Assembly (NCBI GenBank): GCA_963575745.1 | Contig: CAUYUJ010012113.1 | Coordinates: forward strand, 330,559-394,558 | DNA length: 64,000 nucleotides | DNA from: Prorocentrum cordatum | Lineage: Eukaryota; Sar; Dinophyceae; Prorocentrales; Prorocentraceae | Reading direction: 5' to 3' | Shown: positions 1-38,821 of the stretch, piece after piece | Layout: every line of letters starts with the position of its first letter | How positions within the stretch are numbered: the first letter of the stretch is position 1 | Notes under the pieces: model-generated | The model's input: only the letters and a program-made list of their open reading frames with translations | The model's database searches: none | What the model was told of the DNA's origin: nothing | Program-made: the position numbers and the translations under genes

Positions 1-1183
1 TTGGGCCTGCTTGCCTCCATTCGCGAGGGAGCCGTGCTTGCGGATGAGGTTCTTCCCTGAGGCGTGGGTGAGAGCGAGGCCTCCTGGCGTGCTCATCAGA
101 TGAAGCTGCCGACGTAGCCTGGGCGGGAGCCGGCGGGGGCCCCTGCGAGATCCCAGGCGGATCATCTAGAGTGGGCAAGTCTCCCTGCTGACTGGAGCCC
201 GGCGCCGGTGGTGGTGCGTCGGGCATGTCGGGACTAAAGTCCACCTCTTCTTCGCCATTGACCTCCATGATGAGGATTGTGGTCTCGTCCTCGCACAGCC
301 CACATCCATCGCCCTCTTTATCTTCTGATATAAAATCACCAATGACGACGGTCATCGGTCCAGCCGGGACGGGCAGGTTTCCCTGCGTTGCCAGCGTCTG
401 AGCATCGCTTGGCTGTCCCGGCGTAGGCGGTACGGTTGTCGGCTCAGGCTCGTTGCCGAGCACAGGCTGCCCGGCAATATTGCGCATGGCCGTATGGTTG
501 GGCCGCAATCCCGCCGCCTGGAGACCCCATCCTGGCGGAGGAAGAGCCTGACCGCGCATGGCGATGGCCCTTTCAAGGGCCTGGCGCCATCTCCCTCTGG
601 AGTACCACGCATGCCGCTGCACGTCCTCAGGGTGCACGCTGTCGATGAGAGTACGGGCCGCCAGCACTAACTCCGAGTCGTCACAGGCATCAGTGTCTTG
701 TAGCATCATTTGGCCAGCTGCGATGCTCTCTTGACTCTCGGGATATGCTATGACCAACACAGCGTGCATCTTCATGAGGGTCTGCAGTAGAGCGCGTGGT
801 CCGTACTCGCCTGGGGCAAGCGAGCCAGGGGGTATAAACGGGTCCCCTGGCACGCCCATCACGAACGCTTGAGACTCCATCTCCATCAGATCAGCGTAGT
901 TTGGAGGATATGTGGGGGTAGGCCGGTTCCCAAGCATGAGGTCGGGTTGAGGTTGAAGGTTGCGATCAACCTCCGAAGGCGAGGCTTGAACAATATCATC
1001 TTCTCCACTGCTCTCGTAGGCCATGATGTTGCCTGGATTGCCGAACATCCAGTCAAAGAAGGAAAAAGGCGGGTTTCCCAGCGTTCCATGTTCCACAGGC
1101 GTCAGCTCGAAGTTGCCGACAACGAACCTGCGGAGGTACTCGAGGTTGTACGCGTACAGTCCGCGGCCGTACGCCTCGATCAT
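1..1183 (-). CDS. copia-like retroelement polyprotein, segment after gag (partial, leaves window)
   Basis: The minus strand is open from a TGA at 1250-1252 to the left edge, about 415 codons; the first ATG is at 1181-1183. It runs off the window, so its 3' end is unknown. It follows the gag and zinc knuckle of the next entry but in another frame, so a frameshift near 1185 separates the two. The protein starts with an aromatic, hydrophobic stretch (YNLEYLRRFVVGNFEL) and becomes acidic and Pro-rich. No catalytic motif is visible. I place it in the long linker that dinoflagellate copia-like elements carry between gag and protease. Hairpin 14-mers at 133, 175, 373 and 462 lie inside it. The open frame is seen; the element assignment is inferred from the neighbouring gag. 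Confidence 0.6.
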   Translation of the reverse strand, partial: MIEAYGRGLYAYNLEYLRRFVVGNFELTPVEHGTLGNPPFSFFDWMFGNPGNIMAYESSGEDDIVQASPSEVDRNLQPQPDLMLGNRPTPTYPPNYADLMEMESQAFVMGVPGDPFIPPGSLAPGEYGPRALLQTLMKMHAVLVIAYPESQESIAAGQMMLQDTDACDDSELVLAARTLIDSVHPEDVQRHAWYSRGRWRQALERAIAMRGQALPPPGWGLQAAGLRPNHTAMRNIAGQPVLGNEPEPTTVPPTPGQPSDAQTLATQGNLPVPAGPMTVVIGDFISEDKEGDGCGLCEDETTILIMEVNGEEEVDFSPDMPDAPPPAPGSSQQGDLPTLDDPPGISQGPPPAPAQATSAASSDEHARRPRSHPRLREEPHPQARLPREWRQAGP

Positions 1184-1873
1184 CCAAATTATCCACGCTG
1201 CTGACCCAAGTGAAAAATATCTGCTCCATGACCTCAAATTCTTGGAGGCTCAGATATTCAATAACTGGTTCACTTGAGCCGAAATGGACTTCGGTTGATC
1301 TGCCCTTTCAATTTCCCTTCGCTGGGCAATCTTTCACAATATGATCGGTACTATCACACTCATGGCACTTTAGGATCTGGCCGTCTCTACCTCGCGGGCT
1401 TCCCCGCCTACCCTTGCCTTTGCCTGAGGTATCTCTACGGCCTTTACCACGGCCCCTTCCCCCGAAAAATATCTCATCCTACTGGTCATCTGAGAGCCTC
1501 TGGAGGAAGGCCGCGACGCCTCGTCCATTCAACCTACGACGACCCTGTTTGCCTTTACCTTTTCCTTTGAAGCTCCTCCGTATCCTCCTCCTAACACGAC
1601 GCACTGGTTTTCGTGTGAACCTCCTCCACCTCCGCTTTGCCTGTTGTAAAAACCAGAACAGGTGTTCGGCTCGCTGATTGTCACTTTCCATGTTCATGAT
1701 GTCTGACCAATCTAAAGGTTCAACACCGTCTGATGATATAGTATCGGTGTCGGTGCCGGAGTCGAAATCGTCGTCTCCCAAGTAGGTGGATACACCGTCG
1801 GTCAAGGGGTTTGCTTCACCCCATAAAGAGCGGTGTGGTTGAGGTTCTCTAGGAGGAGGGCTGGTTGCCCAGC
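133..1873 (-). repeat. 14-bp micro-hairpin family, copies in retroelement copy 1
   Basis: Copies (plus-strand stem/loop/stem): 133-146 GCGGG/GGCC/CCTGC; 175-188 GCAAG/TCTC/CCTGC (decayed); 373-386 GCAGG/TTTC/CCTGC; 462-475 ACAGG/CTGC/CCGGC (decayed); 1860-1873 GCTGG/TTGC/CCAGC. Only 462 reads in the Ala-Gly-X-Pro frame; the others are read in the other two frames (for example Trp-Ala-Thr-Ser at 1860). Confidence 0.6.
1273..1294 (-). other. spliced-leader-like relic
   Basis: Read on the minus strand, this 22-mer matches the 21-nt core of the dinoflagellate spliced leader except for two substitutions and one inserted T; it ends in GGCTCAAG exactly like the leader. It sits between the TGA after the zinc knuckle (1308) and the long open frame to the left. 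It could mark a retroposed trans-spliced mRNA, or it could be chance within coding sequence. Confidence 0.4.
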
Positions 1874-3221
1874 TTGGTTGTGATCGACCCCCTGCTAGTA
1901 GTGCAGTAGACTCTCCAGGATCGTCGGCCCATATGCTTGAGGGCCCGTTTCCAGGCTGAGCTTCAGTGGTTAAGGTAGCGTAGAAATTTCCACTGCCAGA
2001 TCCCCTCCCCCTTCCAAGCACTGATCCTATATTACCAGGAGACCGTTCTGACAGATGGCCTATCGAACGGATCCTCTCCAGCAACTCATCATACTGTTGT
2101 TGTTTTCGGGGAATTTGGTGGTTGAGTGGCTGTAAGAGTTGCATGGCTCGCTGGTTGCCAACGCCTAGGGTGCGGAATAGGATAGTAGTGAGCAGTTGGA
2201 AGTTGGGAAGGTCAAGTCCCACCGACTGTGCCTCAAGGCGGGCCATCTCGAACCGGGTGAGGGTGACATCGATTCGTTCTCCGTGAGGCACATGAAAGTC
2301 GATGAGCTGTGTGCCTGAAGTGAGCTGGCGCTCATCTTCCAGGCGCTCGAACTTCATGCTTAGGAGGAACATGATGTAGATTGCTGGGTCGGTGTGGACA
2401 CCATCGATGCCCGCGCCGTAGTTTATGATGTCAGGCAGTACCCTCATGGCGAGTGTCCTCGCTAGGCCACCCAGGCCGCGTTGTATGGCGGCCGCTTGGG
2501 CCTGTGGCGTCATGCGTCCACTTGTGACGTTGATCCACGCGTTGACCTCATAAACGTACTCGCGGAAAGGTACGTTGCCTTGAGGGTCCCAGTATGGGCC
2601 ATGCGTTTGCCCATCGGTGCTGTCATCTCCACGGCGCATGTGTCCGATTGCTGCCCCCAGCGCGAATTATATGATGGCGAATACAACCAGCCCAAGGCTG
2701 TGAAGATAAGGGTGGTTATTAGGCGCGTTGCCGCGCTGGGGTAGCGCCTTGTCAAGTCTTCGAAGCGCTTTATCTTGCGGGTCGCCCCGCCTCTGCTTCA
2801 AGTGCTGCGCTTTTGGCTCGTTGCAGAGCGGTTGGTAGTAGCGCAGTGATGAAGCGTATATGGTACCAATGTTGTTGTCTAGACGTCGTACCTCTCGTGT
2901 TGCTTCTTGCTCTTGAGTTGATCCTCGTAAATGTACTGGGAGCGGTGGCGCAGGGTGGTAGTTGGTCACGAAGATCGCGCCGTATAGCGCGAGGATAAGA
3001 AGAGCAAGAGTTGACCACACGAGAGTGCGGCCAGCTCCGCTACCAAGTCTGAAGTGACTATGGCAATTCAAAGAGCATCCGATCCCATGGGAAGCGGATG
3101 GCAAATAGCGTCCGGTATCGTACTGAGGTTGTTCAGTAAGAAAAATTGGACGGATAGGATTGGATAAGATCGATGTAATGATCTTTCCAGCACATAGCAA
3201 ACACAAGCAGCGTCCGGGCAA
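1308..3221 (-). pseudogene. copia-like gag with N-terminal membrane segment and CCHC zinc knuckle (copy 1)
   Basis: One reading frame runs from about 3221 to 1308 and is broken by TAA (2667-2669), TAG (1479-1481) and TGA (1308-1310). The first part has a hydrophobic helix (TLALLILALYGAIFV). The longest uninterrupted piece, 386 codons from 2639, is gag: it contains ERIDVTLTRFEMARLEAQ and PNFQLLTTILFRTLG, which match the second gag at 38.2-39.3 kb residue by residue in places. After the TAG comes a Gly/Arg/Lys-rich tract and a perfect CX2CX4HX4C knuckle (C-HE-C-DSTD-H-IVKD-C, 1326-1367), the nucleic-acid-binding motif of retroelement gag. No ATG is obvious at 3221 (the codon is TTG). All three stop types occur, so decay is likelier than a changed code. 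Confidence 0.75.
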
Positions 3222-3236
3222 ATAGGGCGCGCGTGC

Positions 3237-3254
3237 CTTGAGCCAAAGGCGACG
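3237..3254 (-). other. second spliced-leader-like relic
   Basis: On the minus strand this stretch ends in TTTGGCTCAAG, the last 11 nt of the dinoflagellate spliced leader, preceded by CGTCGCC where the leader has CGTAGCCAT (one substitution, two missing bases). It lies 16 bp upstream of the open frame that leads into gag, where a leader would sit on a trans-spliced mRNA. Confidence 0.4.
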
Positions 3255-3299
3255 ACGCGCGAGCTATACCCCCGATTCTATATAACATCTCCCAAAAAG

Positions 3300-4165
3300 C
3301 TACCCTCAAAGTTCGAGGATGTCTCAGGTTCCCATTTCCATGCGTTTGGTGAATTCGCGGTTTTCTTGTTCTGGTGAATGTCTCAGGCGAAGTGCTTGTT
3401 TTCGTGAAAGGCGGTGTTGCGAACAATTCATGTTGGTGAGGATGGCTCGAGCCACATGCTAACTTTGAGGAATCTCGAGGGCGCTCCTGGGGTCAGGTTG
3501 AGCCTCGTTTGGCGCTCATTTGGGGCTGCCTCGACGCCATCAAAAACATGCCAATGCTTTCTTGAGCATGTCCCAAGCGAAATCGTCATTTTTAGAAGCC
3601 TGGTTTGGGCCGTCTGGAAGCCTTTTCAAGAGCGATCCCAAGACGAGGTTAGAACAGCAATTTTCAAAACGTTGCTGTTGTATGTTTTGTTAATTGTTTA
3701 AAGATGTCCCAGCGAAATCGTCAGTTTCGGTAGTCACCAGGGCGCGTTTGGAGACATATTGAAATCTGTTTTGGGCTATCGTTTCTTCTTCGTGGAGCAC
3801 TTCAATAACGATGTCAAGACGAGGCTGAAACCATCTCACTAGTTTCGAATATGTCCCCAACGAACTGCAACATTTCTGCCGTGTTCTTTTTTCTGGTCCG
3901 CCGTGATGCCGAGCATTTTCCGAGGATGTCCCTAGAGAAAACGCCGTTTTCAACATAAACGGCAGTAAAACACCTCCGGAGACATCTCAATTGTGTGAGG
4001 ATGTCTCAGGCGAAACGCAAATTGTTACAGATGAGTAAATTTCGCGGCGATCAACTTTTCGAGGATGTCTCAAGCGAAACGCTTGTTTTTGTTAAACGCG
4101 ATGTCGCGAATATCCAATGTGTGTGAGGATGTCTCGACCGAAATCGCTTGTTCTGTGGATCCGCT
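3300..4165 (+). repeat. degenerate repeat with core GAGGATGTCTCARGCGAAA
   Basis: About eleven diverged copies of a core near GAGGATGTCTCARGCGAAA recur at uneven spacing (about 60-150 bp): near 3314, 3373, 3434, 3563, 3625, 3699, 3849, 3921, 3995, 4060 and 4121. Some copies share longer flanks, such as the run after 3390 and after 4080 (CGCTTGTTTTTGTTAAACGC and its variant). No coding signal is seen. Confidence 0.6.
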
Positions 4166-4685: not shown

Positions 4686-4689
4686 TGCC

Positions 4690-6730: not shown

Positions 6731-6734
6731 CCTC

Positions 6735-8791: not shown

Positions 8792-8802
8792 TTCCCGAAT
8801 GC

Positions 8803-9092: not shown

Positions 9093-9103
9093 AGGAGGTG
9101 TGC

Positions 9104-14050: not shown

Positions 14051-14074
14051 GCTGACCTCCGATCTTGTCGGCAC

Positions 14075-23639: not shown

Positions 23640-24226
23640 GGATTTGCCCCAACAAGTCTCTTTCCTTTCGCAGTTCTGCGCGCCGCACCTCCATAACATG
23701 TGACTCAATATCAGCTTCTGCTTCCTCGTACCTCGTAGATCGTAGTCAGCCGTCCGTCATCATGTTCTGGTTCGGCTTCCGAAGGCTCTCGTGTGGCTCC
23801 TTCAGGCGTCGGTGCACCAGCCAAGTACTCAAACTTTGACATGTCCGGATCGAAGCCTGCCTGAGGTTTAGTGGACTTCAGGCATTGGATGATTCGTGAA
23901 TGTGCTGATCCAATTATGTCATGTAGACTCAGAGCAGTACCTTCTGCTTCGTAGTAGTGAAATCCCGGATTCACGTCGTTGTCGTAGTGGACCAATGTGC
24001 AGCTGTGAGCATAAGTAACCGGAGGTAGCTTATGAATACGCTTGGCTAATCTGAACGAAACTACGTTCTCGATGCGAAAGAAGTTTCTGACGAGATATTG
24101 TAGGGCCAAGTGTACCATTGGGGATAGACGACTTGCAGTTGTCATCTGAAGCGAACCTTTCTTGGTCGGCACAAAACCAAATGTCAGGGCAGGTCTCCCC
24201 GCTGACAGGCTGGCGACGAACGCCAC
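23640..24226 (-). pseudogene. copia-like element, region between integrase and reverse transcriptase
   Basis: A 171-codon frame between the integrase tail and reverse transcriptase, with a Pro/Glu-rich end (PEGATREPSEAEPEHDDG). It reads as linker; no domain is assigned. Confidence 0.5.
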
Positions 24227-24250
24227 TGTGCGCGGTGCAGCGTTGTCGGA

Positions 24251-25260
24251 TCAAATCTCTCGGGCGTTGAGTGCCTCAACGTAGAGCGAATGTACTGCAT
24301 CACCGAATTGTACTTGAACATCTCGATTGCCTACTCGGATGATGACCCGACCCCTTTCGGGATCATTCTGTACGACTGGGAACGGGCCATTCCAGCCTCC
24401 CCAGTCATCTTTAGAAGTCGTAGGGCGATGGTAGTCGACCAAATCTCCTTCGTCATAATAGTGCTGCCCTGCGATTGTCGTCTTAGTGCGTAGAGCGCGG
24501 TTGGTCTTAGCTACTGCCGTAGCCTGTGTGATCGCTTCAATACATACTCTGAGTATCGTCTGTTCACGAGAGTGATATGATGTCGCTGTCGGCTGCGCAT
24601 GGTCCAGAACAGGAAAGTCAGGGAGCGTTGTTGGTTGCCGTCCAAACAATGCGATGCATGGAGACACTTCATTATAGAAGGTAAATGCGTTGGCGGCGAA
24701 CAAGGCTTCGTGCAGTAGTCTGGTGAACACACGAGATATGTCTAACCTACTGAGTTCAGCCTCATTGCGTGAAGTAGATGACGTAGGATGCCATGTCTGG
24801 CCTCGGTCGTCGTAGATTGCCGCCCACCCGCGCGCATTCTATGTTCAGTGCCTTTCGCAGTGACATTATTAAGGGCACCTCCTCAGTCGGAGTAAAGTTT
24901 ATTGGCCGGTTCAAACTGCATCCAGCACTGATGATGTGAATTCAGGATGTGGTCATAGTTTTGTCTGGTATTTCCATTTCCATCCCAGTAGCATTTCGTA
25001 TACAACGGTCGATAGTGTGAAATTAATTGTGTTCTTGCTTGAAGAATATCAAGCCACATTCCACTTCATCATTTAATTTGCCATGTAATGCAGTAGGAGG
25101 GCATAACTGTGCGCCCAGGTTTGTCCCAAGCTCTGCATTCTCGGCACGTGTCGCAGACGCCCTTGATGAGGTTGAGTCTAACACTGCCCAGACCTATTTT
25201 GCTTAAGATGAGTCATCTTAGGCTCCTTCGCATGGAACCAGCGTAGGTGCAGCTTTCGCA
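24251..25260 (-). pseudogene. copia-like integrase, decayed
   Basis: In coding order: an HHCC-type zinc region (HLRWFH near 25235, CDTCREC near 25147); the strand that should carry the first catalytic Asp reads EVECGLIFF, with Gly where Asp is expected (about 25054); the second Asp is present (LYSD, 24886-24888) but followed by an in-frame TGA; the Glu is present (TTEARHGIL, about 24803), only 27 codons after the Asp where about 35 are usual. The last 159 codons form an intact frame ending in a C-terminal integrase region (YYDEGDLVDYHRPT, WGGWNGPFPVV). With a lost Asp, internal stops and a short D-E spacing it cannot encode an active integrase. Confidence 0.75.
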
Positions 25261-25269
25261 ACTCGCGTG

Positions 25270-26304
25270 TTACCGCGCTGGGGTCAAGGCTTCGCAAATT
25301 TTGTGAACTGATTTGTACATCGAACCGTGACCAGTCTGGTAGTCGTGGTCGCGCAGCAGGGTTCCCTGCCGGTGGTGGTGGAGGTGCTTCTCCACCTTGT
25401 TGTCGACCACGTCTGACTCTAACCTGTGGCAGTCGGAGATGGCCATCCGAACTACCAGCTCCGCTCGAGCAGGTTGCCCTGCAGCAGGCTCAGCAGCATG
25501 TCTCCCAACAACAATGTCGTGACTGCTTGCGCCCGCGGTAGGTCCAGCTCTCAAGCCAGGCCCCGGTGCTCTCAGTCGCGTAGGTGCTGGTGCTGCTGGT
25601 GCCTCAGGTGGTAGTGCTGCTGCTTCAGCAAGATCTGGTCGTGCAGGTCCTGCTGCCGGTTCGACGGGAACTGGCAGAATCTGCCCATGATTGTCGGGGA
25701 GCTTCCAAGGCTTGGCAAACTGACATTTGCCAGGTGCTAGTACATGTCCAGATTTGTTTTTCCCGTAGTTCTTCTTGCAGCTCGGGCGTTCCCAGTGATA
25801 GTCGCCCTTGTCGTGCCATCTGCAATGTCTCGGATCTCTATCATGAGATGGAGAGCGCATGTTAACGTAATCCGCGTAGGCAGGACAACCAAGCCCTCCC
25901 GACGGTGGTCTCGTGATCGAGCCATCAGGTTGTCGGGGAAGACTCGGGCCGCCCAAATCGCATCCCCTTGCTTTGGCCGCCAACGCGGCGGACGAATATG
26001 GGTAGCCATAGAAAGGACCACGAGTTGTCTGGAAGAGATCGCGTGCGATCTGAACATATTCAACAAAAAGCGACTGCGTCTTTGGTGTATATTGCGCAGC
26101 CATGGACAGTTCCTTATTGCATACCGACGAAGTGGCGGGAGCGAATAGTAGGCGATGGTTGGCCATGATCTCCATCGGTTTTCGTACCAGTACCCCATGG
26201 GAATCACGTAGACAGTAGTACATTGATTCACGTTCATTTTGCAAGTGCCCTTGCCGTTGACCAGCGTAATCCATGGTGGTACCTGAAAAAAACACAAGTC
26301 CCAA
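25270..26304 (-). pseudogene. copia-like element, segment upstream of integrase
   Basis: A 344-codon open frame with a Cys/His cluster (CRWHDKGDYHWERPSCKKN), a Pro/Ala-rich linker and the AGQPA hairpin copy at 25469. It ends just before the integrase zinc region. Position and strand make it part of the same polyprotein. The Cys/His cluster may bind zinc but matches no family I can name. Confidence 0.55.
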
Positions 26305-26403
26305 CTGGTTGTTCTCTTAGGTAGAATCGTCGAAGACCATTTTGACGTGCAGCTACCCTCCCAACAAGCATGGCGCGTGGTACATATATTTGTTGATGTT
26401 CAT

Positions 26404-27329
26404 GCCGCCGACCCTGTATCGGCGTGTGGAAGAGGCTTCTCCGCCTGTTCCCTCTTCGTCCTCGTCGCCGTCGTTCCTTCCCCTTTCCCAACAGCGTCGT
26501 TGCTTCCACCCCTCTTCCAGGGCCTCCACCTGAAGCGTGCCAGTCCAAAGCGAATTGAGCAACGTCGTAATTGAGTGGAAGGGAAGCCCCTTCCCTTTGA
26601 TCCCTTCCCCGCCGGGAAGGGGGGGGGGGGGCCCGGGGTGGGCCCCGGGGGGGGCCCGGGTTTCCACGCCGCCCCCCCTGGGAATCCCGGAGCCCAAAAA
26701 AGCCCCAAGACGGGCCAAGAGTGCCCCAAGAGGCCCCCAAGACGATCCAAGAGGGCCCCGAATCGCCGAATGATCTGTCCAAGACGCCTAGACGGCCTCC
26801 AGACGGCCCAAGAGGCCTGCGAGACGCCCCAAGAGGCCTCCAGGACTGTTCCCACGAGAGCCCCAAGCAAAAACCATGGATTCCCCATACGGTTTGCAAG
26901 AATTTTGGCGTTCTCGCCTCTTCCGCTTCCCCGCGCGCCAAGACGGCCCAAGAGGCCCCCAAGGTCGCCCCGAGACGGCCCAAGAGGCCTCCAAGAGAAT
27001 CCCCAAACGGCCCAAGAATGCCCCAAGACGGCCCAAGACGCCTCCAAGACGGCACAGGAGGCCCCCAAAACGGTTCCAAGAGTGCCCAGACGACGGCCCG
27101 AACGGACATTTCGAGCCCTCAGCCCCGAGAAGCCCCCAAGACGCCCCCAGGAAGCCCAAAGAAGCCCCAAGAAACTCCCAAGAGGCCCCCAAACATCCCC
27201 CCAGAAGCCCCCGAGAGCGCCCGGAAGAAACCCCAAGAAGCACGTTTGAGGACCCAACCAGCGCCAACATCGTCGTCGTCGCTACCGCCGCCGCCGCCGT
27301 CGTCGCCGTTGCCCTTCAGGGTCGGCGGC
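26404..27329 (+). mobile_element. TIR-bounded element, copy B (926 bp), inserted in the retroelement
   Basis: The ends GCCGCCGACCCTG (26404-26416) and CAGGGTCGGCGGC (27317-27329) are perfect 13-bp inverted repeats. The interior shares ordered blocks with copy A at 15.6 kb, then holds a longer CCAAGAGGCCC minisatellite (26700-27230). It interrupts the minus-strand copia polyprotein between its 26.3 and 27.4 kb parts. Open frames of 230-290 codons within it arise from the repeat. Confidence 0.6.
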
Positions 27330-28100
27330 ACCGGCCGCAAGGCCTTGGATCACTGCATCTTGGACCCCCTTGCTCCCAAGGTCAACGAAAGCACAGTTGT
27401 CGAGGTTTCCCCCTGAAGACAGATCTCGGCTGAATGCTAGCTGGGAGATGCCTCCAATTTCCCTGCGTAGTTCTAACCCATCTACATTATTGCGTCGTCC
27501 GTAACACAAGGGGGGGGGGTATGGGGAGTGCACCTGCATAGGGTTCAACAGGTTGCCCTGCAGGTAGGGAGATGAAGGTCTCCTCTTCGTCGTCACTACC
27601 CGTGTCGGAGTCCAAAGGTACGTCGGTGTAGTATGTAGTACGCCCGAGTCCTTTGAGGTCGTCTCCACAATCATCGTTGCCTTCTTCGACTATTGCGGGT
27701 GTCTTGCGCGGTTTGATGCCAGCTTCTTTGTCTGCTTGCTGTTTTTTTGTGCAATTCTGGCATATGTTGGTAGTGCTGTCTGTTGTTCTGTTTCTGGTGA
27801 GCTAAGTGTCGGAAATTCGGGAATAGAGGGTTGCACGCTGCCGCGCTCAATTGAAGGGGGAGGGGGGCGATCGTCATCGATGATCGCCACTCGCCTTGAG
27901 CGTGGCCGTGCTGCCATCTCCCAGAAGAGTCGGTTCCGGCTGCTCCCAGTACAATCGAATACGGATGTTGGTAACGCCATCGGTAATGGTGCGTTATAGT
28001 TGTACCCAGTCGGCTGGTCCTGGATCTTGATGTCCTGGACGATCGCATTGTCGCCCAGGTGCATCGCCGCCCGTCTCACAACGTGGCCCCGTTCAGGGCC
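27330..28100 (-). pseudogene. copia-like element, linker region
   Basis: Two frames continue the polyprotein: one ending in ELRREIGGISQLAFSRDLSS (27282-27674) and one with KIQDQPTGYNYNAPLPM (27690-28079). No domain. The break at 27.67 kb is a frameshift. Confidence 0.5.
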
Positions 28101-28176
28101 ATTCTTAGGAGACCGAACCCATTCTTAGGAGACTGAACGTAAGTTCGAACTACTTTATCAACACGAGCATGGATAC

Positions 28177-28760
28177 TCAGATGTACAGCACTTGTGTGCT
28201 CCCTTTGTGTTTATGTGAACCCATTTGGTCAGTCAACCTTGCGGTCAGGATCGTTTGTGTTTTGTTCTGCCATTCAGTCTTCTGAGCACCTTGTCCATGA
28301 CAGTCTAGAAAATGCTCAGTCGGTTCTGCAGGTTCCCCTGCTATATTGCATGCGAATCGCCATAAATTGGTAGGGATGCGTGTGCACGTAGTCGCCACTT
28401 GCAGATATGATCCTCTGGGCAACATGTTCGCGCGGTCGCACTTGAGGCCGAAGTGGCAGAAACGCATGCGCATGCCTTGCGAATTAAGATTTTCAATTAC
28501 ATATCGCATGGGACCTTGTCTCCAGAAATATATTGGTGGCCCCGCAAGTACAATGGTCACGCGTAGAGCCCGAGCCTGTAACATCATATTTTGGATGCGC
28601 TGCTAGTGCGGCCCTGCCCTCTTTCCAGGCGACCTCGCACGCCAGGTGCTGCAACCCACTACAGTTGGTAATCACCCGGGAGTAGCGCACCCAATTACTG
28701 TGAACCAGTAGAGGCCATAACCTCCGTATGTGTAATAAGATCGCACATATATCCACGGGC
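28177..28760 (-). pseudogene. copia-like element, unidentified internal domain
   Basis: A 136-codon frame with VLAGPPIYFW, MRMRFCHFGLKCDRANMLP and YLQVATTCTRIPTNLW. The order GPP-x-x-x-W then CHFGLK is faintly like class I methyltransferase folds, but I cannot assign it. AGEPA hairpin at 28328. The 28.76-29.2 kb stretch holds nothing recognised. Confidence 0.45.
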
Positions 28761-29207
28761 TCGGAGTTCAGCGCGAGCTTTCCTTATGTCCTCGACAACG
28801 AATGCACGAGAGTGGTAATGATGCGACGATCCTTCATTTTCTGCAGCGGCTACACAGCCGGGTCTACTGCTGTTCGCGGCAGCCGCGAAGCCGGGCTAGC
28901 CGCGGCCCCTGGCGCGCACAGCCGGTGCCTGGGAAAAGAATGCAGGTTCCCTCGCGTTTGCTGACAGCATCTGGGTGTTCGGCCTGTCCGTGCAAGCGCG
29001 AGTGGCCGTGGCGCGCGCCTGCCCCCGTCGCTCGTTTGGCGATGGGGGCGTCCAAATACCAGTGCCGAGCTGCGCTGCAGAACTGCTGCTTGAAGTAAAC
29101 ATATCAGACTTCTCAGCAGTATCATCCACTTCCGCAGGCGTCTCTGCCTATGCATCAGGAGGCGTCCACTTCGCACCCTCCTCGTAGATGGCCCGATCTA
29201 TCTTCGC

Positions 29208-29858
29208 CTACAAGTTGCGGAGGGCGAAGTCCTCATCGGCCGAGGTAGGGGTTGCCCCAAATGATATACTTCTACGATGCCATGTCCTCAAGGTGTTGTT
29301 TACCAAACACTGGATCGTGAAGGCGAACGTCTCCCCATTAATAGAGATAATGATGCCCTTCGTATATTGTGACATCATGTATGCGTGGGCATTATGCACA
29401 GCAGGTGCCCCTGCAAGTGGCTCTGGGCCGGATGCTTCTTTGACGAGTAATGGAGCTTCTTCGCGCTGAGGGCTGGCCGTGATAGTAGAGGACACCGACC
29501 CTTGATCCTCAGTAGCCGTCTCGCATTCGTCAGCTTTGAGTGCCAGATGCCCGGAAGGCGTCTTCATCAGGTCGAGTACCCTGGCACCCTTTCCGTGCAG
29601 AACATTGTGCATCTCCACTCCAGGGGTGATCATATTCTCGCGCCCCTGCTCAAGGATCAGGATGGCCCACATGTTGGACATGCTCCTGAGACCCAAGATA
29701 GCAGAGAGGTTCTCTCCAGAGCCCTCAGCCACATTTGCGGAGTACGTATCAAGTCTCGGCACAGCAGGTCGCCCCGAGGAATCTCCCCTTCCTTTGCATG
29801 CTATCTTGCAGCGCAAGGATTTATCGCAAATCGCGGCGCCACGTCCCACTCCTGACAC
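29208..29858 (-). pseudogene. copia-like element, protease-like region
   Basis: A 216-codon frame. ENLSAILGLRSM, then ILEQGRENMITPG and TPSGHLALKADEC follow the pattern I associate with the end of the retropepsin region in dinoflagellate copia-like polyproteins (ALLGL-R-S, GKE-LI-PG, PSGHL). The catalytic Asp triad is not identified in this or neighbouring frames. It contains AGAPA (29401) and a decayed hairpin copy (29764). Confidence 0.45.
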
Positions 29859-29912
29859 GGACAGCCTCTTCGCGAGGCTCAGCTGGCGTGTCCGTAAGAA
29901 AGTGATACTTGC

Positions 29913-30188
29913 TCAAAGTTTTGCGCCGTCTTCAATCCAAGGATATCGATAGTACTGCCAATGTCCAAACGAATAGTCAACATACCATTGATCATAACTC
30001 CTGGCGCGCACCACATATTCCAGGAACTTCAGATGCTGCCGTGCCAAGTCGACCTTTTTTGCGGTACCTCTGTTCCAGCACCCAAGCACTTCTTGACAAA
30101 GCTGTGAATCCATTACAAACCCACGAGCCTCTTCTTCCGTAGCAGGATTCTTTTCAAAGATCCAGGCTGTAGGGTATTCGTCATACAT
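29913..30188 (-). pseudogene. copia-like element, segment between RING finger and protease
   Basis: A 91-codon frame rich in aromatics (YDQWYVDYSFGHWQYYRYPW). No domain assigned; the upstream frame overlaps its start by a few bases. Confidence 0.4.
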
Positions 30189-31030
30189 ATATGGGTGTGA
30201 CGTGGAGGCGATGGGTACAACCAGAAGCGTATCCCCCTTCCGCGCGCATGCTCATCTGGCCATCGATATTTATTATTAATACCGCGTGCAGCATGTCGCG
30301 TTCAGGTATCCCACTGTTGCCGCTGAGTACGCTTACGGGGCTCTCAGTTCTGCGCTGGCTGCGTGAACGAAGACCTCGCCCATGTGGCATAGATGAGTGC
30401 GAAAACCGAAGCCATTGGGCACTCCTGTTGGTAGCCCATTCCATGCGCCTCAACCACGTGTCATCCACTGGTACCGAAGGTGGAGCCGATCGAGCAGGTG
30501 TCCCTGCGTTGCTGTCGGTCTCTGCTACCAGTGGCCTCGGTGCGTCAATAGCAAGTATCTCTGCAGGTGTAGCTGCCTCCGTTACTCGCCCCGCGTTGAC
30601 CAGTGATGCAGGTACCCCCGCTGGGGTCGTCGTCGCTATGGCCGCGGTGCTGGCCATCATGGCCGTTACGCGGTTGAGCACTTCACGGGGGTACCTGAAC
30701 TCGTTCGCACTTTGAAGAATGTCTTCGTGACGATTGAGTGATTCTTGATCTCTAGCAAGGGCGCAGTGGAACTCGGCAGTACTGAGGCCAACACCCCTGC
30801 ATATAGCACAGAGGGCCTCGCTCGCGGAACCTTCCATGTTTCCAGCCAGCTGTCTACCCACAAGGGCGTGTACCACGCGATCCCAGCATCGTGCGTGGAA
30901 TAAGTGGCTGCACTGGAGGCGCCAGATCTTGTCGTGGTTCATGAACAGGCCAGGCATATGGCACACTTGCTGAAATCGCCGTCACTGGTGATGGGCAGTG
31001 TTGCCGCTGGCCCGATGCGCATCTGACGCT
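30181..31030 (-). pseudogene. copia-like element, RING-H2 zinc finger module
   Basis: Coding order: CAIC (30954-30965), a 1-nt frameshift, then RLQCSHLFHARCWDR, a 25-residue spacer and CAIC (30799-30810). The ligands C-x2-C...C-x-H-x2-H-x2-C...C-x2-C are those of a RING-H2 finger, the E2-binding fold of many ubiquitin ligases. A Ser/Ala/Pro-rich tail with AGTPA and AGVPA hairpin copies follows. The first CxxC is out of frame with the rest, so this copy is broken. All eight ligands are seen; ligase function is only what the fold suggests. Confidence 0.7.
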
Positions 31031-32284
31031 CCAGGGTGGATTCTCCAGCTTCGAATCGGATAGGCGATCACGTCGGTAGCTGCATTGTTGCAGCCATGCC
31101 TGGACTGCTCGCAGGTGTCCCTGCTGCATTGTGGTTAGCAGGCTGCCCTGCGCGGCTCAGCATTCTTTTGGCCTGACGATCCTGATGTCGGCGCTGCCGT
31201 GTGGCCTGCGTAGCCAAATTGGCTTGCTGCGCCGCGTGTATGGCCAGGATTTCAGGGCGCATCTCGCCCGTGGTCTGCGGCAGCACTAGGCCTGGAGCCT
31301 GTTGCTGCACATCTTGATCCATGGGGGGGGGGGGGGGGCCAGATAACCGTAGTGAAGTATCTGTCCTGGCACACCTGATGCATGTCCTGAGCCGCGTGTC
31401 AACTGCGACTGGTAGAAATCGTTGGCCGTCGCCCGAACATATGGAATTTCGGGCTGCGTTCCTACCCGAGGAGTACCACTCACCTGTGCATAATAATCAG
31501 GAAAGAGTGGATGATCCATTGGCGCTGCCGTTGGACGGTCAGCAGGCGTTGGATCGCAAGTCGAATGACTGAAGAATGCTGGCACATGACTAAACCGATT
31601 GGGTTTGTCCGGCGAAAGATTTGGATCCGGAACATACTCCTACGGCGACGTCCAGATGGCATTGGGGAGGTCAATACCACCCATCCGCATCTTCTGAGCG
31701 GCCTCGCGCATCCGCCGGTACATCCACTCCTGCTGACCAACTGAACTTCTCTGTATGGCGTATGTGTCAGAAGTAGCAGGTTGCCCCGTAATTGGACGTG
31801 GCGATGCAAATGGCGACGTCGCCTGTAGGAGCCTGGTAGAGCTGCGGATCCATAGGAATACTTTGGAGCCTCGCCTGCAGACTGTTGTTGTTCCAAACAC
31901 TCTGGGAGTACCAGATGGTGTAGTAGCTCTTCTCATAGGGGCGAATGAAGCAGGTTGCCCTGCAGGTACTGGCAGCTGTTGAACCTGAGCACGCCGCGGA
32001 TCGTTGGCGTACAACGTGTCGGTAGGCGTAATGTCACTTGGCGTGATACCTGTCATATCAGCGCTCCGAGCCTGTATCCATGATCCATCAGATCCCCCTG
32101 CAGGTGCCCCCGCATAGTACGCGTCCATCATGAGTACGCGCGAGAATACAATCGGAGGTGGATCGGGACACTTCAACTTGTAGGGGGTATCTGGCATAAG
32201 CTTCCTCAAAGATGATGCATCATTGCGGGTCTCGTACATATCATCAATTCTAATATTCGTGCACGGCTGATTGCCGCCCTTCAA
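31030..32284 (-). pseudogene. copia-like element, linker with tandem AGxPA copies
   Basis: Three overlapping frames (31068-31322, 31286-31585, 31640-32284) form Ala/Pro/Gln-rich linker. It holds the AGTPA/AGQPA pair at 31111/31138 and copies at 31776, 31950 and 32100. A run of 16 G (31323-31338) causes or marks a frame break. Confidence 0.5.
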
Positions 32285-33074
32285 ATAAGGGATGTATCCA
32301 TATCTGTCCCGCGCGATTGTGCTGACAGACGTGGTTGGGCAAGGCCCCGATCAACTGGGCGATATGAGCGGGAGGGATCCTGCCATTACCAACTGCAGCC
32401 ATGGCAATGTCGTTCGCCGAGCGCCGTGCTGGAATATTGCCAGGAAACAAATTCCTCAAGCTAATCATGATCAGGACCTCGGAATCCATGCGTAAACCAG
32501 ACTGGATTATGTTGTCACCGGGCAGGTATGGGCATCCATGTACGAACTGTCTGCCCCTCTTCTTACCGGTGTCGTCGGCGCGGCAAGATAAGCCAACGCT
32601 GAGAATACCTAGTGTTTTTCTCCCACTGGGTTCCATGAATGAAATACCGAGGTGCCGCAGGTGCTGATAGGTCAGTGATCCTCATATATAAACATTCAGG
32701 GCACTTGATACCAAGGCTGCTGTCACCGCTGGTCTGGCGGATGAAGTAGGTGTCGTAATTCATATCGGAATACCTCATCTTCTTGATCTGCAACCTGTTC
32801 TTTTTCATTCCGGACTCATCTATCATGCCGATGAGCTCCAAGACAGCGTAAGCCTGGTACGCCCAGTCACGATGCTTGAGCAGGTGGCGTACCGTGTCAA
32901 GATGCTCGGGGTGGTACCTCTCGCATCCTTCTCAGGCCATGTACTGAGTAACTGCGATAAGTCTGCCCAACCGTCGTACTCGTCATATGTCGTAACCTCG
33001 CGAATACATATGTCTGACAAGCAACCACTGTGAAATGGTTTGCGACGGAGGGCTGTCGTCAGCCACTCAGACAC
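32250..33074 (-). pseudogene. copia-like element, possible zinc-ribbon segment
   Basis: LGIKCPECLYMRITDLSAP then FIHGTQWEKN in the 32563-32841 frame, continued after a frameshift by CPYLPGDNIIQSGLRMDSEV in the 32250-32636 frame. The CPEC knuckle suggests a zinc ribbon, but the second Cys pair is not clear. The 32823-33074 frame (YDEYDGWADLSQLLS) joins it upstream. Confidence 0.45.
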
Positions 33075-33140
33075 CTCACGTTAATCTTCGAATTTGAACC
33101 TCGGCCTGCGAACGTTGTCTGTGCTGGGGATGTTCTCCAA

Positions 33141-34912
33141 CTACTCCTTTTCTGAATCCAACGTGAGCGCAAGGCGCTTCCGCAAGATGTTGCGCACTAT
33201 TTGGCGCATCCGTGCACCTTCGTCAGACTGGGCAGCAGTGCCCATGGCATTGGATTGCACCACCATGTAGCGATCATATCCATCATGATTCCGCTGATGA
33301 TATGCTGGATTGATCTTCATGCGGCTGCCAGTGCGCAGCCTGTCCCAGTATTCTTTACATTCCAGTGGTACTCCCAGCGCAGGGGTAAGTTGCCCCGCTG
33401 GGCTGCCAGCAGGTTGCCCCGCAGAACTCTGAGCAGGTTGCCCCGCAGAACGTGGAGCAGCCTTTGGCGCTGGCGCTGCAAACGTTGCCGCGCTCGCCGC
33501 CGATGCGGTAGCACCAGCAGACCCCCTGGGCGCCCTTGGAGTTCCTTGCGGGGTACTGATGTCGAAGTCTGGGTGCTTCTTCTCCCTGGTGTTGTAGGAC
33601 TCGGCATCCTTGTCCCTGGGCACTGCTCCTGGCACCTTCGGTGTTGTAGCAGCGAGCTTATCAGTGCGCTTCGTGGAAGTGGCCTCCCTTGTCCTTCCTT
33701 CCAAATGAGGCGTCCCTCCTGACCTTTGCGTCCGACCTGGTGTAGGGCCGCGGCGTGGCACATGCTCTTTTGGAGTAGGCATGCTGGTGACCTGGAGTAT
33801 GGCTGCTGCGGCGGCCACTGCTGGTCCTCTAGATCGTTGTCGATCAGCGCGTTGCTCAGCAGGTTGCCCCGCGCATCTCTTGCTGTCCCCAAGATCAGGA
33901 TCATCTGGGATCTTCCGCTTCTTCTTCTTGGGCTTAAGATGATCAGGACCAAAAGATGGACTATTGAAGCAGAATCAGAATCACAAAGCGAGGGGAGTTC
34001 GATCGTTTCTGGCTTCGGCTCGTGCGCTGATTTTGCCGTAGACCTTGCCGGCGCCCCGGGGGTACACCGCCGATGACGCTTTATGGGACCTCGATCAGGA
34101 TTCAGATCGTCACCACCTGGCCTCCTGAGAGCCATATTCTTAATGGGTACTTTCATTTTCCATGCAAGTAAGTACTTATCAGCACCGCGCCTCTCGGCTA
34201 TGCATGTAATGATCCAGCCCGCACCTTGAGCGCGGTGAGCAATCCGCCTGCCAGGAGAGAGCTCCATGTCTCTGGTGACAACGCAAGCATGGTTGATCGG
34301 AGTACCAATTTCACAAGTAATGTCCGTGATGCCCGAATCACATGACTCACCGTCGTCAAGGGCAGCTTCCGTAGGATCCACCCTCTTCAGCCGTCTCATC
34401 ATCTTCATCTGCATCAGCTTCTGATTGGCTTTTTCTGGTTCATGGTCGGCAGGTTTCCCTGCGTGCCAATCGCGATTGAACTGCGCCAGGTAGTGATGAG
34501 GAGGCCGCGGCTTGCGTTCGTCGAGGCGACCCCGCCCTGCGCTGAAAAGGGCGCGCGGGGCAGCCGCGGGGCAGCCGCGGGGCAGCCGAAGCAAAGCGGG
34601 TTCTTGGGCGGCATCGCCGCGGGACGCCGCGACATAGCCGCAGCAGCACGACTGAGGACGGCTGCGCAGCTGCAGCACTGCTGTAGCACAGCGACGGGGT
34701 AGCATGTCGGCTACACAGGGACGATCTTCCACGATGGGGATATCCATAGGAACTACATCCTTGACAGGAACAGACACGGTCACGGACCTGGCGGACACAG
34801 AAAAGGAAAGCAACGTGGAGGGCGAACGACAAGAGAGCGCCGAGACGGCACAATGTGCACACGCAAGTCCGGGCATATATAACTCGGTGTGAAACGGCAG
34901 GTGCATGCGCAA
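33141..34912 (-). pseudogene. copia-like element, linker with four packed hairpins
   Basis: Two overlapping frames share this span: 34912-33317 (531 codons) and 33818-33141 (225 codons). The polyprotein probably passes from the first to the second near 33.8 kb. Early residues HYLAQFNRDWHAGKPADHEP resemble part of the minus-strand reading of TIR copy B (VAQFALDWHA). The end carries AGQPA-QSS-AGQPA-GSPA-GQLT from four packed 14-mers. No enzyme motif. Confidence 0.5.
34540..34612 (+). repeat. short GGGGCAGCCGC repeat
   Basis: Three units of GGGGCAGCCGC, then CCGAAGCAAAGCGGG. The same repeat-plus-tail order recurs at 35.6-35.7 kb. Confidence 0.7.
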
Positions 34913-35619
34913 TTGAATGCATGCCCTGGTTGTTGAACAGGTGTAGGAAATTCCGGGGCATGTGATCTCTTACAAAAATCAGTAAGAACAGGCGTCGGTA
35001 GGTCGAAACGGCGAGACACACATGGCCAATAATTGGAGGGCAGTGTGGAAACGCATGCGCGCGCGAGAAAACGCGCGCAACTGAACACGCACACACGAGA
35101 ACGCGTGCGTGAATACAATGGCGCGCGCATGAACTTTCACTGGAAGCGATCGGCGTGAATGGGCTCAGGGAATCGCTTTGCCCCCCCATGCGTCGCCCTC
35201 TTCCTAAAACCATGGGTCTGAAGCTCTTCCCCCGCGATGGGCTAGAGCGCCTAAGATGGCCCAAAATGGCTCCGCGACGGCCCCAGAAAGCCCATGATGA
35301 CCTCAAATATGACTCATGAGCACCCAGCGTCGTTCAAGATACCTTCCAATTTGCCTCCGAGATGCCCCGCGGCCGCCCCAAGGCGGCCCCAAGTGGCCAC
35401 GGCGCCCCCCCAGGAGGCCCCCGGGAAGCCCAACTCCTTTAATGACAATACTATGAACAAGTTGGCGTCGCCTTCTCGTTGTTCCGAGCAGTGTCCGCAG
35501 GCAACAATGCAACTATAATGATGATACCGACTGTGTGGGGCCGGACGGAGTGCCGCGTGCCGCTGGTATTGGCGACCGAAAACACATGTTCAAGTGTAAT
35601 ATGACAGCGCCAGACTGCG
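34613..35619. other. insertion or gap in the retroelement; no gene recognised
   Basis: Alternating purine/pyrimidine ACACGCGCGC-type sequence at 35.04-35.13 kb and a short CCAAGAGG minisatellite at 35.23-35.43 kb. Minus-strand frames are Cys/Arg-rich with no motif. Confidence 0.4.
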
Positions 35620-35875
35620 CCGGGACAGCCGCGGGACAACCACGGGACAGCCGCGGGGCAGCCACGGGACAGCCGCGGGACAGCCGCGGGACAGCCGCGG
35701 GACAGCCGCGGGACAGCCGAAGCAAAGCGGGCCGTCGGGCAATAAAGCTGCGGCCCGGGCCAGTAAAGCCGCGGCCCGCCGCGGGACAGCCGCGGGACAG
35801 CCGCGGGACAGCCGCGGGACATCCGCGGGACAGCCGCGGGACAGCCGCGGGACAGCCGAGGCGCAGGCGAGGCAA
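35620..35875 (+). repeat. 11-bp tandem repeat GGGACAGCCGC, about 20 units in two blocks
   Basis: Block 1 (35626-35715) and block 2 (35778-35860) are separated by CCGAAGCAAAGCGGG and GCCCGGGCCAG. The 11-bp period gives an 11-residue repeat in every frame (for example CPAAVPRLSRG on the minus strand). Confidence 0.85.
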
Positions 35876-35954
35876 ACATGAGGCCAAAATGCGATGGGAG
35901 CTCTGGGAATGGCCTTCAATCGAGTTGTCTGGCATTGAAGATTATCCATGGTTC

Positions 35955-36110
35955 GGATGACGAGGAAGGGAGCGAAGGAGGCAGGAGGGGGGCGAAGGAG
36001 GGAAGAAGGGAGGAGGGAGGAGCGAGGAGGGAGGGAGGAGGGAGGATGAGGGAGGAACGAGGAGGGAGGGACGAGAAGGGAGGAGGGAGGACCAAGGAGG
36101 GATGAAGGGT
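35955..36110 (+). repeat. GGAGGA-type microsatellite
   Basis: Purine-only GGAGGGA and GAAGGGAGGA units. Confidence 0.8.
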
Positions 36111-36798
36111 GGAGGAGCCATGGCAAAGAAACGAATGAGTGAACCCGACGTCGGGGTCACATAAGCCCCCGCCATCAAAGTGCATATTGGGGCTGGTCTT
36201 GTGGGGGGTGATTGCCGTGGGAGGGAGTCCAAGGGCGCGGGATGAGCGGGAAGGTTTTTTGCTGATGATTTATATGTGCTTGTATTGCAATAAAACGGAC
36301 TGTCATTTTCCCGCACAACCAAAATAGCAACAAACGAACGGGGGAAAGGCGCGCGCCACCTGCATCTCACGGGCGATCCCGCTGGACGCCCGTGAGCGCG
36401 AAAACCGCGAAGAGACCCGGACCGACGAAAAGCGCGAGAGACCCCTAAACCTTGCAAGATCTTGCAGTGCCCACCCAATCGGCCAGGGCAGACGAAGGCG
36501 CCCGTGCGGGGCGCGCGCATCATCACAGCGACAACAAAAAACACGCCATGTCCTGAAGCTCGCAGAACGCATCATGGAGCGATGGCGCACGCGCAGATCC
36601 GCAGTCGAATCGGGTTGAAGCTCGCACGGGCTGCGCTAGAGCAGACCGGCGCGCCCGACACTCAAACGCGCCGAAGCTCTAGCTACTCGCGCACGCAGAA
36701 AAGCTGCTCGCTCAATGAAAAAAGCCACGCTCGCAGGAAAGCTGCTCGCCCACAGGGCACGGCTACATTTCGGCTTTTCTTGGGCGGAATTATGCGAA
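36111..36798. other. no gene recognised
   Basis: Unique-looking sequence; frames overlap on both strands. Ends at an 18-G run (36799-36816) that abuts the retroelement linker. Confidence 0.4.
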
Positions 36799-36821
36799 GG
36801 GGGGGGGGGGGGGGGGTCAGT

Positions 36822-38177
36822 TTAAGCCGCGGCCTCCTCAGGTAGTGAGTAGATATCAAGTTCTGCCAAAAAGCTTTGTTTGCTCAATCTCTGTGAGCGT
36901 AGCAGGGGCGTACGCCTTCTCCGCCAGCTGCTCGTCGCATGGTGTTTCATTGGGGGGTCAGTGCAGTACACCCGACCATTTCCATGGGACCAAACCCACG
37001 GCGTCCTTTTGAAATTCGGGCCCCTTGATGGGCGTCTCATGGGACAGCCAAGCCTGTAATCGGCATGGCTGGGGCATCTGCAGCAAGCGCTTATGTGGCG
37101 CTTTCGGTCCTCGATGGTGGCCCTTTTGAGATCGCGCGCGACCAGCTGTTCCAGCGATTTTGAATGCCCCTTATTTGAGAGAATGATAGTGCCTTCATCG
37201 TTTCGCTTGGCCCGACGAAGAATACCAGTGTCGAATTTGATGTTCGTTCCAACCTCTGTTCAACCAGTATTCCATCTGATCTGAAGGCATGTGCTGACGA
37301 GATAATCCACGTGCGCCCCCGCCCTTTACACGCTGTACTTCACCTTCTGGACCTCCTTCTTTGATCATCTTGAGGCGGGTTCCCCCGCGGGCGCCCCCTC
37401 CTGGGGGGGGCATGCGCTCTTGGCGCCTGTCCAGGCGGGCCACTTGAAGTTCCCACCTCGGGAGGGTGAAGACGCTGAACGCCGCCCGAAAGAGCGCCGC
37501 TGGGGCGGGCTCGCACCCGATCTGGCGAGGGACTAGGAGCTCGACCGCGACGCGCCAGACGGTCATCATCTCCCTGTTCGTCCTCGTCGCCCATTGGCGA
37601 AAGACTTTGGTCGTCATGGTACTTCTTCTTCCTTATCAAGGGTGGGCGACTTGGCGCTCGCCTCGGACTGCTAGCGGACCGATCTGTCGCAACAGAAATA
37701 TGCGGAAATTGTTCATTATGTCCAAGCTCAGATTGAATGCGTTCAGATAGGTCACCAGCGTTGCGCGGGGTTCCCCGCAATGGATCATCATCTACCGATG
37801 CTGCGTTTGCCGGATTTCCAACCACACGAGGATGAAGCATTGCATGTGCTTCTTCATCCGTTGCAGGAATGGTAGATTCTGGGTCCGCGGGTGCCCCCGC
37901 CACACCAGAATCACCTTCGACGGGCATATGGAAGTTCTCGACAAACTCAACATCTGCAGGTTGCCCCGCGATGGGCGCACCCAGCCACTCAGCCAAGTCG
38001 ACGTCGCCGTGGCCAGCGAACACCTCCTCGAACAACTCGCCGGCGTTATTCTCGAGGGTCATGCTGGCACTTAGATACCTGGCAGCCATGAAATGAATAA
38101 CTGTGGCTGAGCCGTCGGCAGGGTCGGCCAAAAGCGACCCCCAATCAACATACTGTATGTCGGAATCCGTTTTGGCC
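36822..38177 (-). pseudogene. copia-like element, linker after gag (copy 2)
   Basis: Continues gag copy 2. The frame 38131-37340 reads VIHFMAARYLSASMTLENNA then acidic Pro-rich sequence with AGQPA (37956) and AGAPA (37887). The frame 37617-37195 overlaps it and continues with MPSDQMEYWLNRGWNEHQIR. The frame 37040-36822 ends in LDIYSLPEEAAA at the poly-G run. At least two frameshifts. Confidence 0.55.
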
Positions 38178-38821
38178 TAATATATTGACGGGCCCCTGCC
38201 TCTTCCATCACCTTGGGGGCACTCGCGTCGGAAACGTTGTGCACCCCATGATTCTACCGTTGGCATCCTTTGGATTTCCTCGTCGCCCTTTACCTTTACC
38301 TGATGTATGCCTACGGCTTCTGCCAGCGCCTAAAAAAAATGTTTTCGCACTGGTGCCCAGTGGAAGACGCTAGGGATGCTAGTATGCCTCTACAATGTAG
38401 TCGCCGACGCTTACCTTCGCCTTCTCTTCGACCCTTGCCTTTTCCTTTAAGATGTCCGCCGTACCATGCGTCTTACCCTTCTGACTGGTCTCTTCATGAA
38501 CCTCCGCCAACGGCGCTTGTGCTTTTGATGGCCAAAAAATTACCGCTGAGCTTGCTGCTCTTCGGTAAGGTATGTAGACATATCAGAGTAGTCCAAAGCG
38601 GTAGCTTCATCATCAGAAGACGCGTCGGTATCGGTGCCGGAGTCGAAGTCGGACGCGGCGGGTTGCCCCGCAGAGCACATCCGGGTCATAGCTTGTATAA
38701 GGGAGACCGCGTCGGGCGGCCCCCTAGATCTGGCCCAGGGGTCTTGCGACCCCGAGGCCGCTCCGCCATTCTGAGCCAACAGTGTTGTGGTCTCAGTCGG
38801 CGGTATAGCAGTTTGCCCTGC
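37375..38821 (-). repeat. 14-bp micro-hairpin family, copies in gag copy 2 and its linker
   Basis: Perfect GCGGG/CCCGC stems: 37375 (loop TTCC), 37765 (GTTC), 37887 (TGCC), 38658 (TTGC). 37956 is GCAGG/TTGC/CCCGC. Decayed: 37809 (GCCGG/ATTT/CCAAC) and 38808 (GCAGT/TTGC/CCTGC). 37887, 37956 and 38658 read AGxPA; 37375 and 37765 are in other frames. Copy 38658 lies just before a DFDSGTDTD motif that gag copy 1 also has, without the hairpin. Confidence 0.8.

Follow-up and report, generated by a model that had tools for sequence, protein, structure and literature searches.

Analysis of a 64,000-nucleotide stretch of Prorocentrum cordatum DNA (assembly GCA_963575745.1, contig CAUYUJ010012113.1; this whole stretch is referred to here as the window) revealed numerous 14-nucleotide (nt) hairpins that are carried on the coding strand of two copia-type long terminal repeat (LTR) retrotransposon families. 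These families, A and B, were defined from fetched genome stretches (labelled L0nn). We conclude that the hairpins almost certainly constitute a selected array of sense-strand RNA structures. As to their function, we consider it about an even bet (probability roughly 0.5) that they are dispersed sites by which the element's own Gag protein recognizes its genomic RNA for packaging.

A previous sequence-only reading of the window had described about 30 hairpins with a stem of 5 base pairs (bp) and a 4-nt loop, 16 of them perfect and all confined to the retroelement coding strand. All 16 coordinates indeed carry perfect 5-4-5 stems, and two further perfect copies were found at 1394 and 2777. With any central letters allowed, the relaxed motif occurs 32 times in the window, compared to a mean of 3.9 in 300 dinucleotide shuffles made in 1-kb blocks, which bears out the earlier estimate of about 30. 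The strict motif, GCNGG-N4-CCN'GC, was found 19 times (one of these matches, at 40000, being part of an unrelated palindrome), with a mean of 1.03 and a maximum of 5 in the shuffles, and chance was rejected as an explanation. When read on the coding strand, the motif becomes GC-NNG-GNRA-CNN-GC, a 5-bp stem closed by a GNRA tetraloop; on the plus strand the loop reads mostly as KTNC, the retroelement genes of the window lying on the minus strand. Allowing G.U pairs, we observed 18 copies of the GNRA form on the minus (coding) strand and none on the plus strand, as had been claimed, and in the window this form was not found outside retroelement sequence. With Watson-Crick stems only, there were 11 copies, versus 0.34 in shuffles. 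The earlier statement that no copies lie outside the copia-like regions (0 to 2 kb and 25 to 39 kb) holds for the real motif, since the relaxed matches at 12377, 21655, 39996 and 40000 lack the loop. The limits themselves were drawn too tightly, with the sites at 2777, 23551 and 24189 falling just beyond them, yet these sites are still within retroelement sequence. The canonical GNRA loop is present in 8 of the 16 listed sites (373, 1860, 25469, 28328, 31950, 34449, 37375 and 38658); the other eight have the loops GACA, GGCA, GAAC or GCAG or are a junction product of a tandem repeat. The description of variable loops on constant stems was thus nearly the reverse of what we found: loops on the coding strand are GNRA or GNN-like, and it is the stems that vary, with compensation.

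The same motif is abundant in the assembly (4.13 Gb, 21,875 contigs), where a single stem form, GCAGGTTNCCCTGC, gave 8,730 matches versus 175 for a reversed control, and the G.U form gave 8,892 versus 846. Among the first 30 genome matches, which were taken in contig order and are therefore no random sample, 29 fall in family A or B. The single other match, L015 (C11:7484), may represent a third carrier family. Rfam yielded no match at gathering score in the window, L041 or L042, although 14-nt hairpins are possibly too short for its models.

To assess selection, hairpin sites were projected onto other copies of the elements, where the target had not been preselected for pairing. This gave 943 ungapped comparisons for family A (27 gapped ones were set aside) and 193 for family B (12 gapped). 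In family A, identity was.832 in the flanks and.955 to.996 at the stem positions; within the loop it was.834 at N and.915 at R, and GNRA was retained in 886 of the 943 targets. Where only one side of a pair had changed (145 cells), 60 cells were still paired, and where both sides had changed, pairing was preserved in 43 of 44 cells, with 17 distinct combinations. These 44 cells repeat shared events, and we counted about five independent compensated changes in the alignments. The pairs interchange among G-C, C-G, A-T and T-A with pairing retained, which the CpG decay previously considered does not explain. The earlier suggestion that the GCTGG/CCAGC stem indicates a constrained hairpin was correct. 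The signal was weaker in family B, with GNRA in 157 of 193 targets and pairing in one of the six cells changed on both sides. Over distinct rows, 98.1% of cells paired in family A (217 rows) and 94.7% in family B (90 rows), versus 25 to 48% and 30 to 48% with slid partners and shuffle means of 78.1% and 86.0%; these rows are biased towards pairing, since each copy also serves as a reference elsewhere. At the central pair, G.U was seen 30 times and A.C 3 times, an excess expected for sense RNA, with a milder bias over all single changes (49 to 26 in family A and 26 to 19 in family B).

Within coding sequence, third codon positions were identical in.965 of cases in stems versus.674 in flanks, and every codon phase is represented among the hairpins of the five open frames studied (31, 5 and 4). 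One uninterrupted frame of 2,242 codons alone contains 17 strict hairpins in three phases. Compensated pairs, a loop N that changes at the flank rate, frozen third positions and the use of all phases together indicate selection at the RNA level within the polyprotein frame. Many family-B copies do read AGxPA in one frame, as would be expected if the encoded peptide (AGxPA, RGNPP or QGNLP) rather than the RNA were selected, but this explanation is contradicted by the three phases in intact frames, by copies within the 3' untranslated region and by the nearly frozen third positions, and we regard it as extremely improbable. Translational bypass, another earlier suggestion, is not needed to keep such a frame open.

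The hairpins had also been interpreted as a dispersed, minimal mobile sequence. Short hairpins that are repeated in genes and inserted as DNA are known from mobile palindromic mini-elements and byp elements, and the high copy number and the lack of similarity among the flanks of different sites within an element would fit such an origin. However, sites are common to copies that are ∼68 to 95% identical around the hairpins, and although 1,120 site-to-copy comparisons contained 24 gap runs overlapping a hairpin, not one had the boundaries of the 14-nt unit. Moreover, 20 stretches (over 200 kb of fetched copies), each picked for containing matches, yielded 204 sense copies of the strict form and no antisense copy; any 5-bp Watson-Crick stem with a GNRA loop gave 224 sense versus 7 antisense copies. 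Shared sites, single orientation, compensated substitutions, open frames and the lack of empty sites with exact boundaries thus set these hairpins apart from mobile mini-elements and bypass elements, and such an origin is most improbable. The sharing of copies at the same sites, named in the earlier reading as a refuting outcome, removes only the mobile interpretation, and the alternative proposal of an RNA element proved right. Unlike dinoflagellate introner elements, which lie at intron ends, the hairpins reside inside uninterrupted polyprotein frames. One site near the integrase/reverse transcriptase boundary is seemingly common to families A and B, as judged by eye from the encoded peptide.

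The hairpin sites of the window are as follows (the supporting analysis is given in parentheses).
175..188, minus: hairpin GCAGG-GAGA-CTTGC, one G.U (GNRA scan)
373..386, minus: hairpin GCAGG-GAAA-CCTGC (kept in 6/6 other aligned family-A copies)
448..461, minus: hairpin GCTCG-GCAA-CGAGC (GNRA scan)
1069..1082, minus: degenerate hairpin GCTGG-GAAA-CCCGC, one mismatch (motif scan, copy alignment)
1394..1407, minus: hairpin GCGGG-GAAG-CCCGC, loop one off; GAAA in most other copies
1860..1873, minus: hairpin GCTGG-GCAA-CCAGC (perfect stem, copy alignment)
1943..1956, minus: hairpin GCCTG-GAAA-CGGGC, one G.U (GNRA scan)
2723..2736, minus: hairpin GCGCG-GCAA-CGCGC (GNRA scan)
2777..2790, minus: hairpin GCGGG-GCGA-CCCGC (perfect stem, copy alignment)
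23551..23564, minus: family-B hairpin GCGGG-GACA-CCTGC, G.U, non-GNRA loop
24189..24202, minus: family-B hairpin GCGGG-GAGA-CCTGC, G.U (copy alignment, GNRA scan)
25356..25369, minus: family-B hairpin GCAGG-GAAC-CCTGC (perfect stem, copy alignment)
25469..25482, minus: family-B hairpin GCAGG-GCAA-CCTGC (perfect stem, copy alignment)
28328..28341, minus: family-B hairpin GCAGG-GGAA-CCTGC (perfect stem, copy alignment)
29401..29414, minus: family-B hairpin GCAGG-GGCA-CCTGC (perfect stem, copy alignment)
30494..30507, minus: family-B hairpin GCAGG-GACA-CCTGC (perfect stem)
30608..30621, minus: family-B hairpin GCGGG-GGTA-CCTGC, G.U (motif scan)
31111..31124, minus: family-B hairpin GCAGG-GACA-CCTGC; GAGA in L043 (perfect stem, copy alignment)
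31138..31151, minus: family-B hairpin GCAGG-GCAG-CCTGC; other copies have GCAA (perfect stem, copy alignment)
31950..31963, minus: family-B hairpin GCAGG-GCAA-CCTGC (perfect stem, copy alignment)
32100..32113, minus: family-B hairpin GCGGG-GGCA-CCTGC, G.U (motif scan)
33389..33460, minus: 24-bp tandem repeat with hairpins GCGGG-GCAA-CCTGC at 33409 and 33433
33859..33872, minus: family-B hairpin GCGGG-GCAA-CCTGC, G.U (GNRA scan)
34449..34462, minus: hairpin GCAGG-GAAA-CCTGC (perfect stem, GNRA scan)
37375..37388, minus: family-B hairpin GCGGG-GGAA-CCCGC (perfect stem, GNRA scan)
37765..37778, minus: family-B hairpin GCGGG-GAAC-CCCGC; GGAA in L039 (perfect stem, copy alignment)
37887..37900, minus: family-B hairpin GCGGG-GGCA-CCCGC (perfect stem)
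37956..37969, minus: family-B hairpin GCGGG-GCAA-CCTGC, G.U (GNRA scan)
38658..38671, minus: family-B hairpin GCGGG-GCAA-CCCGC (perfect stem, GNRA scan)

At the degenerate site 1069, four of six other family-A copies have GCTGG/CCAGC and one has GCTCG/CGAGC. The tandem repeat at 33389 to 33460 shows one route to hairpin duplication, and the site 33397, formerly listed as a copy, is merely a product of its junction. In the copies L038, L040, L043 and L045, the site corresponding to 25356 has a similar stem with the loops TAAC, CAAC and GAAC in place of GNRA; UAAC is a UMAC-type loop, which folds like GNRA. The family-B copy of the window is split into short open reading frames (ORFs), and some of its loop deviations may reflect decay.

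The distribution of the hairpins along an element could be followed in a copy of ∼16 kb at L041/L042, which has 33 strict sense hairpins with a median spacing of 458 nt (33 to 1,323). The array extends from ∼200 nt past the primer site across the polyprotein and into the 3' untranslated region, and hairpins are absent from the LTRs of this copy. Eleven stem classes were seen at least 5 times, and of 215 copies, 177 have a C directly after the stem. Complementarity rarely extends to the next flanking pair (7.4% of rows in family A and 20% in family B), and the stem therefore consists of five pairs. The hairpin formed in both the minimum-energy and the centroid structures of all nine 54-mers tested, the stability of the whole 54-mers being mostly ordinary (z of -0.3 to -2.8). 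Such hairpins might act on the RNA itself, as local folding units that compact the 16-kb molecule, by blocking long-range misfolding, conferring resistance to decay or pacing ribosomes, with no dedicated contact to Gag. GNRA loops are stable caps, and an even distribution across the coding frame that continues into the 3' untranslated region would suit such a role. Nevertheless, the fixed architecture (basal GC, G-C closing pair, GNRA loop and a following C) imposes more than folding alone would require, pairing rarely extends beyond the stem, and there is no enrichment of the 11-nt GNRA receptor (5 sense versus 3 antisense), so that docking to this receptor was rejected. We consider a purely structural role unlikely.

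The carrier elements are identified as copia-type by their reverse transcriptase (RVT_2, 36.7 bits with a cut-off of 31.6, in L042:3025-6531). The window contains the following parts of them.
3046..3312, minus: family-A LTR, at the 5' side in coding orientation (267 bp matching the two termini of other copies)
3035..3045, minus: primer-binding-site-like motif TGGTAGCGGAG, immediately following the family-A LTR
1479..2639, minus: family-A Gag with capsid-like domain and Arg-rich tail (ORF; predicted structure)
2..1249, minus: family-A polyprotein continuation, an open frame truncated at the edge of the window (ORF)
22906..39270, minus: family-B retroelement pieces, one or more diverged copies with broken frames (blastn to L037-L040 and L043-L045; ORFs)

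We take the TGGTAGCGGAG motif to be a putative tRNA primer site. The LTRs of another copy are 97.2% identical to each other across 253 bp, and a primer-site-like motif lies at 1480. A putative target duplication, GAATG, flanks the element on both sides, as judged by eye from the printed flanks. The predicted structure of the family-A Gag has its best matches in the Copia, PNMA2 and Ty1 capsids, and on this model the protein qualifies as having a Copia-like retroelement capsid fold.

The family-A frame additionally holds a Tpt1/KptA RNA 2'-phosphotransferase domain (E of 3e-24; L032:1654-8379, minus strand). Genome-wide, 150 Tpt1 matches were scored among 2,877 candidates, many of them within long frames, and Tpt1-bearing frames reach 4,482 codons without a stop, a figure that refers to frame length only. 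The presence of this domain raises the question of whether RNA is cleaved and rejoined, or repaired, at the hairpins. However, frames are open through the hairpins, so that nothing needs to be removed, and no Tpt1 match was found in the ten family-A and family-B window ORFs scanned, which is a partial test; we regard such a link as very unlikely. A word-based protein search, limited by protein length, detected no homolog of the Tpt1 region at E of 0.001.

We further investigated whether related elements carry comparable hairpins. Querying with the reverse transcriptase region recovered 49 proteins, mostly from metagenome sources and one from Polarella. Since in its commonest phase the hairpin reads as x-G-N-y or x-G-D-y, a test could be made on proteins only, with the condition that the codons of x and y be reverse-complementary. 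Among 39 dipeptides, GD ranked first (36 versus 18.7, z of 4.58) and GN second (34 versus 20.2, z of 3.57), the next having a z of 1.84. The clustering thresholds were of our own choosing, and at 6, 8 and 10 GN and GD remained the top two in the close set; in an unclustered version GD was strong and GN weak (p of.019), with GT and GV also elevated. This signature is confined to the 31 closest proteins, which are metagenomic, and absent from 18 distant relatives and from 39 Gag homologs. Repeated peptides, such as DPGNRIP (four times in P0011) and HGNV (three copies in P0015, four in P0022), suggest that lineages may have their own distinct stems while keeping the loop; the stems predicted from these peptides are CCGG for P0011 and CACG for P0015 and P0022. 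A scan of IMG/VR with P0003 found nothing. Two Gag homologs, P0051 and P0065, come from transcripts labelled Pyramimonas, one of them being 57% identical; contamination, prey and horizontal transfer are candidate explanations.

From the fixed size, the GNRA loop, the many copies, the covarying and apparently lineage-dependent stem, and the absence from LTRs and from the antisense strand, we infer that a protein reads these hairpins in RNA. This reader might be a host RNA-binding protein, which the hairpins recruit, or whose ligand they mimic, so that the element RNA is exported, localised or protected. Two families of one genome carrying the same motif would be in line with that, but the rest of the window lacks the GNRA form, and the other stems seemingly used by relatives are more easily explained by an element-encoded reader; recruitment of a host factor thus appears rather improbable. 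The most likely reader would be the Arg-rich/zinc-knuckle tail of Gag. Each GNRA hairpin would then provide one anchor on the genomic RNA, and many anchors per RNA could enable cooperative and self-specific packaging as well as condensation of the unusually long genome. Retention of the loop with alteration of the stem between lineages would be expected if Gag and stem co-evolve. In favour of Gag are its predicted Copia-like capsid and an Arg-rich tail that is conserved in the Gag alignment; weighing against recognition by Gag, this tail is also conserved in the set of Gag homologs that lacks the hairpin signature. More tentatively, the stem might be a lineage-specific barcode in this marine copia clade, read by the element's own Gag or another element protein. 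Were this possibility to hold, elements within one nucleus would distinguish their own RNAs by a self-recognition code written over the polyprotein frame, and it would represent a new kind of RNA system.

Searches of an open-access library gave no description of such a hairpin array in retroelements. A 5-bp stem with a GNRA-like pentaloop is read by an Arg-rich peptide in the antitermination system of phage lambda (N peptide and boxB). The present hairpins share with boxB the stem length, the GNRA-like loop and a candidate Arg-rich reader, and differ from it in having a tetraloop, dozens of copies and a reader that is only putative. Packaging signals in single-stranded RNA viruses are described, in the part of the review cited here, as multiple dispersed short stem-loops that have a recognition motif in common (PMC6281560). 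The element resembles them in displaying one structural motif at many sites over its genomic RNA (33 in L041/L042). In contrast to the viruses covered there, it is a retrotransposon, its 5-bp GNRA hairpins are nearly identical and covary strongly, and capsid binding is putative; we use the comparison as a working analogy. Like Ty1, the element is of the copia type, and its Gag must choose its own RNA. For Ty1 and Ty3, the sections cited here describe cis-acting packaging sequences as ill-defined and scattered sites as likely (PMC4974528). The known cis regions mentioned there lie near the ends, unlike those proposed here, and these sections describe no dispersed hairpin array. How LTR retrotransposons choose their own RNA is an open question, for which candidate sites can here be listed base by base; it could now be addressed using short RNAs together with a single recombinant fragment of Gag. 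The array also illustrates cleanly how dense RNA structure can overlie protein-coding sequence, here in a Tpt1-bearing element.

Two further features were observed. An ORF of L031 (coding strand, 462-4604) and P0003 share a conserved region that contains motifs such as LELCGGEGGISELAF...LQPSCR...FIREQP. An interpretation as a degenerate DNA methyltransferase was considered and dropped, as Pfam gave no such match; the Symbiodinium Copia superfamily is likewise described without a DNA methyltransferase domain in the part of the source cited (PMC5890265). Finally, the window contains two large tandem arrays, one at 51993-53820 (42-bp unit, ∼44 copies) and the other at 53818-55921 (224-bp unit, ∼9 copies).

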